DNA of 64,000 nucleotides, from the NCBI RefSeq assembly GCF_007747445.1, contig NZ_CP036425.1:1844175-1908174 (forward strand). Reading direction: 5' to 3'. The first letter of the stretch is position 1. Each line of letters opens with the position of its first letter. This DNA comes from Poriferisphaera corsica (GTDB lineage Bacteria; Planctomycetota; Phycisphaerae; Phycisphaerales; Phycisphaeraceae). Both the position numbers and the translations under genes were made by a program. Below the pieces are notes generated by a model, which saw nothing but the letters and a program-made list of their open reading frames with translations, was not told the DNA's origin and searched no databases. Shown here in pieces: positions 3,334-5,778 of this stretch.

Positions 3334-3578
3334 CGAAGCCCGCCTTATTCCGTGGGTTCCAAAAATCCGCTCTCACCGACGCTCAAGCCAAATCACCAGA
3401 CGACCAAGTTTTCTATCCACCTGAAAACGTCTGCAGTGCCACCAGTTTTTCATCCACTATTGATGCGAACGGCCTGAGAACATTATAGACTATTACCTCT
3501 CTACGAGATATCCATCAAACACCCGGCCACCGCCCTTTGTATCCCCAGCAGCCGGCATTCACGGAAGAAACCCTACCA

Positions 3579-3953
3579 ATGGAAAATCCAGAACAATCCA
3601 ACCCCGCAACTCTCGAAGGCACCACACCCCCTCTCACCGACGACACCATGCGCCGCAAAGCCATCGATACCGCTTTTGACTACCGTGGCGACGTAACCCT
3701 CACCACATCTGGTGGAAACGCCTACAAAGGATATCTCTATAACCGTGATGATTCCGCCTCAGAGCCTTACGCAATGATGATGCTCAAAGCCGGTGGCGAA
3801 CAAAAAATCATCTACGCCGATATCACTGCACTCACCTTTTCAGGCAAAGACCCCGCCGCCGGTAAGACTTGGGAATCATGGCTCAAACGCTACGCAGAAA
3901 AGAAACTCAAGGGTGAAGCCGCGAATATCGAATCAGAAAACCTCGAAGATTAA
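3579..3953 (+). CDS. Conserved hypothetical protein, LSm-like core
   Basis: A 124-residue acidic protein. The N-terminal 40 residues are proline/threonine-rich and probably disordered. A compact middle part follows (G-D-V-T-L-T near residue 38, then G-Y-L-Y-N-R-D-D, then I-I-Y-A-D-I-T-A-L-T-F-S-G), a strand pattern like an Sm-type beta fold, and then a charged helix. I chose the ATG at 3579; a TTG at 3537 would add 14 residues. It ends about 60 bases before the trp leader peptide, so it is not obviously part of the trp unit. I do not recognise a specific function. Confidence 0.6.
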   Translation: MENPEQSNPATLEGTTPPLTDDTMRRKAIDTAFDYRGDVTLTTSGGNAYKGYLYNRDDSASEPYAMMMLKAGGEQKIIYADITALTFSGKDPAAGKTWESWLKRYAEKKLKGEAANIESENLED

Positions 3954-4014
3954 GCGCAATTCTGCTAACATAATCCAAAACAGCAGGACCTTTCATTAAT
4001 CTGAACTAAAGATC

Positions 4015-4071
4015 ATGAATCACAAACACGCCGCATATTGGCAAGTCTATTGGCGACGCTGGCAAAGCTGA
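4015..4071 (+). CDS. trpL: Candidate Trp-rich leader peptide upstream of trpE
   Basis: An 18-codon reading frame, MNHKHAAYWQVYWRRWQS, with Trp codons at positions 9, 13 and 16, lies about 110 bases ahead of trpE on the same strand. Three Trp codons in 18 next to an anthranilate synthase gene are very unlikely by chance and match the ribosome-mediated attenuation peptides of enteric trp operons. The stop codon sits inside a small hairpin (4066-4080), and a second hairpin (4093-4118) follows. No clear Shine-Dalgarno sequence is visible, which is common in this genome. Translation is inferred, not shown. Confidence 0.65.
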   Translation: MNHKHAAYWQVYWRRWQS

Positions 4072-4118
4072 TTCCCAGCTCACGCGTCTATCGTGTGCAT
4101 TTCTTTTCCATTGCACAC
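4066..4118 (+). promoter_or_regulatory. Candidate trp attenuator hairpins
   Basis: Two adjacent stem-loops follow the leader peptide. AGCTG (4066-4070) pairs with CAGCT (4076-4080) across the leader stop codon. GTGTGCA (4093-4099) pairs with TGCACAC (4112-4118) over a 12-base pyrimidine-rich loop. No U-tract follows the second stem, so if this is an attenuator it may act on translation or through a Rho-dependent step and not as a classic intrinsic terminator. Confidence 0.45.
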
Positions 4119-4179
4119 ACCAATTTACAGTTTGTTGAGACTACAACGATCATCACGATGAAAGGCTCGGTTGCCCATC

Positions 4180-5778
4180 ATGCCATACCAACTTCCCGAT
4201 TTCGAATCATTTGAAAAACTCGCGCTACAAGATCACCCCCCCAGTGATTCCCCACTCATCCCCGTCTGTAGACGCCTCTTCAGCGACACCCTCACACCAG
4301 TCCTCGCCTATCGCCGTCTCATCCGCAACGACCCACGCATGGCCCCCAGTTTCCTCTTCGAGTCTGTCGTCGATGGTGACCGTGTTGGCCGCTACAGCTA
4401 TGTCGGCGCGCACCCTATCATGCAGATCATCGCACGCGGACACAACGTCGAAGTCCTCGATCATTCCGGTGCAGGCCACACCAAATCCATCATCTCCGAA
4501 GACCCGCTCATGGAGATGAAACGCCTCATCGATAACTGGAAACTCCTCCTCCCCGATGAAACTCAAATCAAGCTCCCCGACTTCACCGGCGGCTGGGTCG
4601 GCTTCGCCGGTTACGACACGGTCCGCTATCTCGAACCCGAAAAACTCAACAATCCACCCACTGACGATCGCAACCTACCAGATCTGCACATGCAGCTCTA
4701 CAACGATCTTGTTGCCTTCGATCACGTCCAGAAAGTCATCCTACTCATCACCCACGTTCAGCCCGACGATTACGCTTCAATCCACAAAGCCTACGATGCA
4801 GCCGTCTCAAAACTAGACGAGATGACTCACGCCCTCGTTGGCCACTCCCACATCGAAGATTCAGAAACCTCCCTCCTGTCAGGTGGGCATATCAACCTCA
4901 CCTCCCCACCATGCAAGCTCCCCCCCAGCAACATGGGTGAAGGTGGCTACCAGCAAGCCGTTAACAAGGTCAAAGACTACATCAAAGCCGGTGATGCCTT
5001 CCAGATCGTCCCCAGTCAGCGCTTCGAGATCAATACAAAAGCCGACCCATTCGATATCTATCGTGCGCTTAGAGTTGTCAATCCCTCACCATACATGTTC
5101 TATCTCCAGATCGACGGCGGCATGCTCATCGGCTCATCTCCTGAAATCCTCTGCCGTGTTCAAAACAACCAGGTCACCAATCGCCCGCTCGCCGGCACAC
5201 GTAAGCGCGGTAAAACAAAAGAAGAAGACCTCGCTCTCGAGAAGGATCTTCTCTCCGACAACAAAGAGATCGCTGAGCATGTCATGCTCGTCGACCTTGG
5301 CCGCAACGATGTTGGCCGCATCGCACAGCAAGGCTCCGTCGAGATCCTCGAAACACTCCAGATCGAGCGCTACTCGCACGTCATGCACATCAGCTCCACC
5401 GTCGTCGGCGACCTCCAGCAAGGCCGTGACTGCTGGGACGCACTCCGTATGTCACTCCCCGTTGGCACCGTCAGCGGCGCTCCTAAAATCCGAGCGATGC
5501 AAATCATTGATGAGCTTGAACCCACACGCCGTGGCCCATACGCCGGTGCCGCAGGCTACGCCGACTTTGCCGGCAACATGGACATGGCCATCGCTCTTCG
5601 CACCATGGTTGCCATGCCTAATGACAAGGCCGAAAAGGGTGAATGGAGTATTCATCTCCAAGCCGGTGCTGGCATCGTCTACGATTCCGACCCTGATTCT
5701 GAGCATCAGGAAACCGTCAATAAAGCCGCCGCATTGGCCAAAGCTATTGATGTCGCGGAAGCTGCCTTTATTCGATAA
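4180..5778 (+). CDS. trpE: Anthranilate synthase component I
   Basis: A 532-residue chorismate-utilising enzyme. It makes anthranilate from chorismate with ammonia delivered by a TrpG subunit, the first step of tryptophan synthesis. The N-terminal regulatory domain has the feedback-site-like sequence near residue 55-70 (F-L-F-E-S-V...G-R-Y-S-Y-V-G). The C-terminal catalytic domain has I-G-S-S-P-E-I-L, R-P-L-A-G-T-R-K-R-G, D-L-G-R-N-D-V-G-R and P-V-G-T-V-S-G-A-P-K-I-R-A-M. The length is normal for the family. The start is the ATG at 4180; a TTG nine bases upstream is in frame. No trpG or other trp gene follows in the window. Control is probably by the Trp-rich leader directly upstream. Confidence 0.95.
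   Translation: MPYQLPDFESFEKLALQDHPPSDSPLIPVCRRLFSDTLTPVLAYRRLIRNDPRMAPSFLFESVVDGDRVGRYSYVGAHPIMQIIARGHNVEVLDHSGAGHTKSIISEDPLMEMKRLIDNWKLLLPDETQIKLPDFTGGWVGFAGYDTVRYLEPEKLNNPPTDDRNLPDLHMQLYNDLVAFDHVQKVILLITHVQPDDYASIHKAYDAAVSKLDEMTHALVGHSHIEDSETSLLSGGHINLTSPPCKLPPSNMGEGGYQQAVNKVKDYIKAGDAFQIVPSQRFEINTKADPFDIYRALRVVNPSPYMFYLQIDGGMLIGSSPEILCRVQNNQVTNRPLAGTRKRGKTKEEDLALEKDLLSDNKEIAEHVMLVDLGRNDVGRIAQQGSVEILETLQIERYSHVMHISSTVVGDLQQGRDCWDALRMSLPVGTVSGAPKIRAMQIIDELEPTRRGPYAGAAGYADFAGNMDMAIALRTMVAMPNDKAEKGEWSIHLQAGAGIVYDSDPDSEHQETVNKAAALAKAIDVAEAAFIR

Follow-up and report, generated by a model that had tools for sequence, protein, structure and literature searches.

The 64,000 nucleotides of Poriferisphaera corsica DNA analysed here (the window, part of a genome that forms one contig of 4,291,168 bases) contain trpE, directly preceded by a short frame rich in tryptophan codons and by several stretches with the potential to pair as RNA (Table 1). 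The assignment of trpE, which starts with the ATG at 4180 and is followed by a fliN-like gene, rests on a TIGR00564 score of 565.2 bits against a cut-off of 517.7, with PF04715 and PF00425 also matching; trpA, trpC, trpD and trpS are all located far from it. On the upstream side lies a short gene (3579-3953) without a Pfam or NCBIfam match, which precedes trpE in many relatives and whose C-terminus carries a AGKTWESWLKRYAEKKLKGE-like motif. This gene stops at 3953, which rules out that the tryptophan-rich frame is its tail. Among the relatives, a frame change apparently interrupts trpE in G050 (G050:C1, around 4181650-4183249), and the trpE of G016 (G016:C120:20445-22001) is listed with one internal TAG.

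Table 1. Features of the trpE upstream region of P. corsica, in window positions.
Feature	Position	Strand	Basis
5' segment GGACCUUUCAUU, possible strand masking the start of trpE	3986..3997	+	comparison and helix test
Trp-rich leader frame MNHKHAAYWQVYWRRWQS	4015..4071	+	ORF reading and conservation in relatives
Conserved core AYWQVYWRRWQ, codons 7-17	4033..4065	+	32/33 bases shared with ZRK32
Hairpin, Trp13-Trp16 segment with RNA past the stop codon	4055..4088	+	folding
Weak hairpin resembling an intrinsic terminator (4081-4097), then a U-rich tail (4100-4107)	4081..4107	+	-7.0 kcal/mol
Competing hairpin GUGUGCA/UGCACAC (4093-4099/4112-4118), no U-tract behind it	4093..4118	+	folding
Purine-rich conserved block GAUGAAAGG	4157..4165	+	ends 14 nt before the trpE ATG; AATGAAAGG in ZRK32
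trpE, anthranilate synthase component I	4180..5778	+	TIGR00564, PF04715, PF00425

The frame comprises 18 codons, from the ATG at 4015 to a TGA at 4069-4071, and its TGG codons at 4039, 4051 and 4060 bear out the tryptophan positions 9, 13 and 16 reported in a first-pass annotation of this DNA. Conservation in related genomes, on which that annotation had made its reading depend, was found in the congener ZRK32 and in five further species. ZRK32 (L002/L031, CP066225.1) carries MKYMTTAYWQVYWRRWQS at the equivalent site before trpE; codons 7-17 of the two leaders match at 32 of 33 bases, codons 1-6 at 10 of 18. For comparison, the best 33-nt alignment of one spacer with the other reaches 18/33. 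From codon 7 to the stop, every difference is silent (GTC/GTT, Ser AGC/TCC, stop TGA/TAA). The related frames before trpE in five more members of the family are MNRTQCGRWLWRGWRWR in G058, MQLNRRSIRRWWRGWQA in G047, MHTRTRQVGDCWRGWRRDARAL in G048 (two tryptophans), MRNPTPPTRWACWRWPIG in G019 and MDVRWWRDQVMWR in G007. The motif they share, mostly W-R-[R/G]-W, is less fully kept in G019 and G007; outside it the peptides differ widely between species. These five, P. corsica and ZRK32 are the seven leader species referred to below; a two-tryptophan frame in G013 (L018, MFRRGFDCQFSWGSWRYFRPFALPSPSGFP) is a doubtful eighth leader, and another in G009 (L023, MNPARRSMIWWP) was left out. On this comparative evidence, the leader frame upstream of trpE is genuine, conserved and rich in tryptophan codons.

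The silent sites of trpE are nearly saturated between P. corsica and ZRK32, as only 100 of 395 degenerate codons at conserved residues (25%) are identical. In the leader core the corresponding figure is 7 of 8 (P ~6e-4), or 7 of 9 with Ser18 (P 0.002), in a test that was devised after the near-identity had been noticed. The core is thus probably constrained as RNA as well as peptide. Conservation is also seen on either side of the frame. The 5' segment lies 29 nt before the leader start and includes a GGACCTT that is identical, at the same offset, in an ungapped comparison with ZRK32; a conserved block, [G/A]ATGAAAGG, begins 22-23 nt before the trpE ATG, and in P. corsica the block at 4157-4165 is complementary to 3989-3997.

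The wider distribution was assessed on 85 trpE loci of the family and order, from which 6 lacking a trpE start were dropped; the remaining 79 represent 54 distinct upstream regions, 52 of them extending 120 nt or more upstream. In 6 of these 52 regions the last 170 nt contain an ATG frame, 8-30 codons long, with at least three tryptophans, against 0.115 expected from dinucleotide shuffles (P ~6e-10, with the three-tryptophan criterion fixed after the frames had already been seen), and frames with at least two tryptophans occur in 9/52 against 1.1 expected. A chance frame is rejected by the former excess together with the conservation in ZRK32. The majority of the relatives examined nevertheless have no such leader. 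No leader frame precedes trpE in G050, a congener of G019, G047 and G048; across G050 and 19 order relatives no frame with at least three tryptophans precedes trpE, and L139 alone has one with two. Among planctomycetes outside the order, 106 genomes gave a match, and the 30 loci retained from these contain no ATG frame with at least three tryptophans and one TTG frame (1/30). In a 43-row TrpE tree, the seven leader species require three changes, fewer than in any of 500 label shuffles, which implies either an old leader with frequent losses or a small number of gains. Separately, Trp-rich frames before trpE in an Ignavibacteriales MAG (L063, MNTRYYTYCNANESRSYWAWFWYTYMQIGVLRMET) and a Mucispirillum MAG (L109, MKKFSLYLKPLFVSYFFSQSWRVLWWRFNA) are candidate trp leaders in two more phyla.

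Searches for known tryptophan regulators were negative. TrpR (PF01371), TRAP (PF02081) and the T-box (RF00230) were each found in 0 of 9 genomes, with positive controls, and control by any of them was rejected. Attenuation as the sensing principle is the best inference, and the lack of matches to these systems in the nine genomes speaks in its favour. The Rfam trp leader, RF00513, gave no match in positions 3500-4600 of the window or in the seven leader loci and none over the cut-off in 51 family genomes under stricter filters, and a known Rfam element at the leader was accordingly rejected; the sole sub-threshold match is at G062:C7:6885-6997 (L155; 29.2 bits against a cut-off of 41). Leaders of other genes were sought at 28 trpC, trpA, trpD and trpS loci of the seven leader genomes, in both orientations and over the 460 nt before the domain match (at least L158 and L166 having a shortened flank). 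Four loci have an ATG frame with at least two tryptophans, and a single one, trpD of P. corsica, has at least three. This frame, MACQWYWWVWLKAENGLPLTRMSD (L205, G000:C1, about 252629-252703), has four tryptophan codons within six positions, begins beside the stop of an upstream frame and ends 141 nt before trpD; it is restricted to P. corsica among the seven leader genomes and is not found in ZRK32.

The RNA between the leader and trpE appears to be structured. Folding of 4050-4200 is more stable than in 199 of 200 shuffles (z -2.99) and that of the longer stretch 3980-4200 than in 195 of 200; across the seven species, however, overall folding z does not differ between leader and leaderless regions (P 0.48). 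Hairpins between the short frame and trpE, also described by the first-pass annotation, were found at 4055-4088, where GACGC (4055-4059) pairs with GCGUC (4084-4088) around an inner AGCUG/CAGCU, and at 4093-4118. Together with a third, at 4081-4097, they are mutually competing. The annotation had stated that no U-tract is present, which holds behind 4093-4118 and is otherwise partly wrong, since the overlapping middle hairpin that it missed is followed by AUUUCUUUUC, a U-rich tail.

A pairing of a different kind may join the RNA upstream of the leader frame to the trpE start region. In P. corsica this predicted helix, CCUUUCAUU/GAUGAAAGG, reaches p 0.005 (0.007 when repeated with fresh shuffles), and the pairing of 3989-3996 also appears in the centroid fold. 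Equivalent helices are predicted for ZRK32 (13 pairs, several of them G-U; p 0.017, repeat 0.003), G058 (CCGGAUGAA/UUCAUUCGG; p 0.047, repeat 0.08) and G048 (GGCGGAUCAGC/GCUGAUCCGCC, 11 perfect pairs; p 0.002, repeat 0.003), and none was found in G047, G019 and G007 (p 0.56-0.88). The combined P of 3e-4 for the seven species is too good, because two of the helices, those of P. corsica and G048, had already been spotted by eye when the test was devised. As controls, p falls below 0.05 in 8 of 45 leaderless regions at a comparable distance (4 at p<0.02), in several by way of inverted repeats, in 3 of 45 further upstream, and in 1 of the 7 leader species when the segment is slid 100 nt upstream. 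Removing the leader contribution opens the trpE start more than is seen with shuffled leaders (combined P 0.014); the opening is also greater than in leaderless regions (P 0.023), 4 of 45 of which are at p<0.05. The null-free opening energy of the trpE start is altered by the leader in some species and unaltered in others, and a leader x trpE-start duplex does not stand out from shuffles in any of the seven (p 0.13-0.96). A helix between the Trp-codon core and the trpE start, examined with three window sizes, falls below 0.05 only for G048 and in two of the three sizes, and a second test of it gave a combined value of 0.18. About ten structural tests were run in all; of these, the 5'-leader helix test alone would hold up under a simple correction. 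In leaderless relatives, the stretch from the upstream gene to trpE often contains long inverted repeats (L006, with 17 perfect pairs, L014, L015, L029 and L048; by eye also L033, L051, L052 and L120).

Based on these comparisons, we lean towards the explanation that P. corsica trpE is preceded by a tryptophan-sensing cis leader that works by ribosome stalling and is read out most probably at the initiation of trpE translation. The first part, a cis-acting tryptophan sensor, is likely; a translational read-out at the trpE start, taken by itself, is a tentative proposal, suggested by helix and masking tests that are weak and partly post hoc. In this scheme, the 18-codon frame would be translated, and a shortage of charged tRNA-Trp would stall ribosomes at its tryptophan codons, which would presumably raise trpE expression. 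With the RNA free, the leader's 5' portion would pair with the trpE start region, leaving the leader frame in the loop, and ribosomes held on the leader would keep that start region open; in Poriferisphaera, the weak hairpin and U-rich tail past the leader stop may add premature termination. Against such masking stands the position of the masking strand, which is upstream of the leader start and out of reach of a ribosome stalled at the tryptophan codons. As to the read-out, we favour translation in the first place and transcription termination in Poriferisphaera in the second.

Classical transcription attenuation, in which stalling favours an antiterminator and completion of the leader an intrinsic terminator, is the strongest competitor, and we consider it unlikely. 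The three overlapping hairpins resemble a 1:2, 2:3 and 3:4 set, and P. corsica uses intrinsic terminators, which are detected at 16 of 54 ORF ends against 11 of 147 stretches inside ORFs in the window. In both Poriferisphaera species the RNA from leader to trpE holds a hairpin followed by a U-rich tail (1 against 0.2 expected per 271-nt stretch), that of ZRK32, TTGTATCACGTTGTGGTGATGCAG-TTTTTGTC, having -10.9 kcal/mol and a UUUUU and lying +17 to +40 past the leader stop; over 1.1 kb of the window, however, terminator-like sites are not in excess (1 against 1.4 in shuffles). The five other leader species (G058, G047, G048, G019, G007), whose leader stop is 41-61 nt from trpE (41-108 nt for all seven), show no terminator-like site; judged in the same way, such a site is present in 7 of 45 leaderless trpE regions, so that its presence is not tied to the leader. 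The predicted behaviour of the hairpins also argues against a switch. With equilibrium folding and a ribosome placed at Trp9, Trp13, Trp16 or the stop codon, the ZRK32 hairpin is expected to form with a probability of 1.0 at any of these positions (0.97 without a ribosome). The P. corsica hairpin is likewise predicted to persist at the tryptophan codons (0.66-1.0) and would be lost only at the stop codon, where its probability, 1.0 with an assumed footprint of 9 nt, drops to 0.12 or 0 with one of 12 or 15 nt, a response of the wrong sign. An antiterminator switched by ribosome position was thus found in neither species by this folding. The model hairpins lack the right response and five species lack a terminator-like site; the status of a classical trp attenuator is therefore not supported, which is also in line with the absence of RF00513 matches. 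Of the attenuation in a planctomycete that the first-pass annotation had proposed, the leader with its Trp codons is consequently well supported by conservation, and the classical antiterminator/terminator switch is not. Its hint at a different read-out may be right for that reason, although the ground given for it, the lacking U-tract, was partly wrong.

Rho-dependent control, with a C-rich and G-poor spacer serving as a Rho-loading site whose accessibility depends on translation of the leader, would suit the composition of the five short-spacer species (C 0.33-0.51, G 0.15-0.26). We regard it as improbable: C exceeds G in leaderless relatives too (by 0.08 on average, sd 0.15), the ZRK32 spacer has G above C, and a stalled ribosome would probably cover too little of the spacer to account for protection. 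Less probable still is a frame that senses no tryptophan and simply supplies trpE with reinitiating ribosomes. An excess of leader genes some 10-11 bp before genes is described for several groups including Planctomycetes in the accessible part of PMC4833913, but the distance here is 41-108 nt, and the tryptophan codons themselves recur across species. Least credible of all is action in trans of the Trp/Arg-rich peptide or of a short leader RNA, such as has been reported for the Sinorhizobium trp leader peptide (PMC7298713). The recurrence of W-R-[R/G]-W while codons 1-6 vary, and the conservation of the core RNA beyond its codons, would fit this idea; the peptides differ widely beyond the motif, however, and no target is known.

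The cis-acting, stalling-based leader with a preferred translational read-out may be extended into a more speculative scheme, which we consider doubtful as a whole: a terminator-free tryptophan attenuator of the PVC superphylum, defined by a W-R-x-W leader with a 33-nt core kept as RNA and peptide, which would control trpE translation through a helix enclosing the whole leader frame. The possible second leader of P. corsica, at trpD, would hint at a small regulon that replaces TrpR, TRAP and the T-box. More modestly, the P. corsica leader is an extension of a known principle rather than a new one. A conserved tryptophan leader from the Planctomycetota broadens the range of leader-peptide control; its carrier is probably a cultured type strain. 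The mostly terminator-free layout of this leader makes the read-out of such leaders a testable question.

By 2010, leader-peptide control of amino-acid genes had been described in Proteobacteria and Actinobacteria, with one Firmicutes case added, according to the available passages of Naville and Gautheret (PMC2965389), in whose main text the string 'planctomycet' is absent. Planctomycetes are among the groups whose leader genes Korolev et al. 2016 (PMC4833913) counted, with no trp case for them in the accessible portion of the text, and the word tryptophan is absent from the main text of the ZRK32 paper (PMC10945688). We recognised no description of a trp leader in Planctomycetota in the titles, abstract beginnings and some passages of the open-access matches listed.

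The likeness to E. coli trpL (RF00513) is evident in a short, Trp-codon-rich frame directly before trpE, with hairpins after the frame. The differences are that no RF00513 match exceeds the cut-off in 51 genomes, that no switch in the right direction was found, that five of the seven species have no terminator-like site, and that trpE of P. corsica is far from trpA, trpC and trpD. Chlamydia trachomatis belongs to the same superphylum as P. corsica. In its YtgR/WWW attenuation, as described in the accessible part of PMC7755916, Trp codons likewise couple translation to trp gene expression; the agent is a trans-acting repressor with a WWW motif in that case and would be a short cis leader here. 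Actinobacteria provide amino-acid-specific leaders outside Proteobacteria: in the passages available of PMC1262725 (2005), the trp attenuators of Corynebacterium and Streptomyces have GC-rich terminators with poly-U tracts, which are present here at best weakly and in one genus, and cys leaders have no obvious terminators, which is a likeness to the present layout. Translation attenuation of the cysteine genes of Mycobacterium smegmatis, as cited in the available part of PMC13236596, offers a further parallel. Tryptophan would replace cysteine in P. corsica, and its putative masking helix is weakly supported; what the two would share is an upstream frame whose cognate codons, by stalling ribosomes, are proposed to expose the downstream gene's start.
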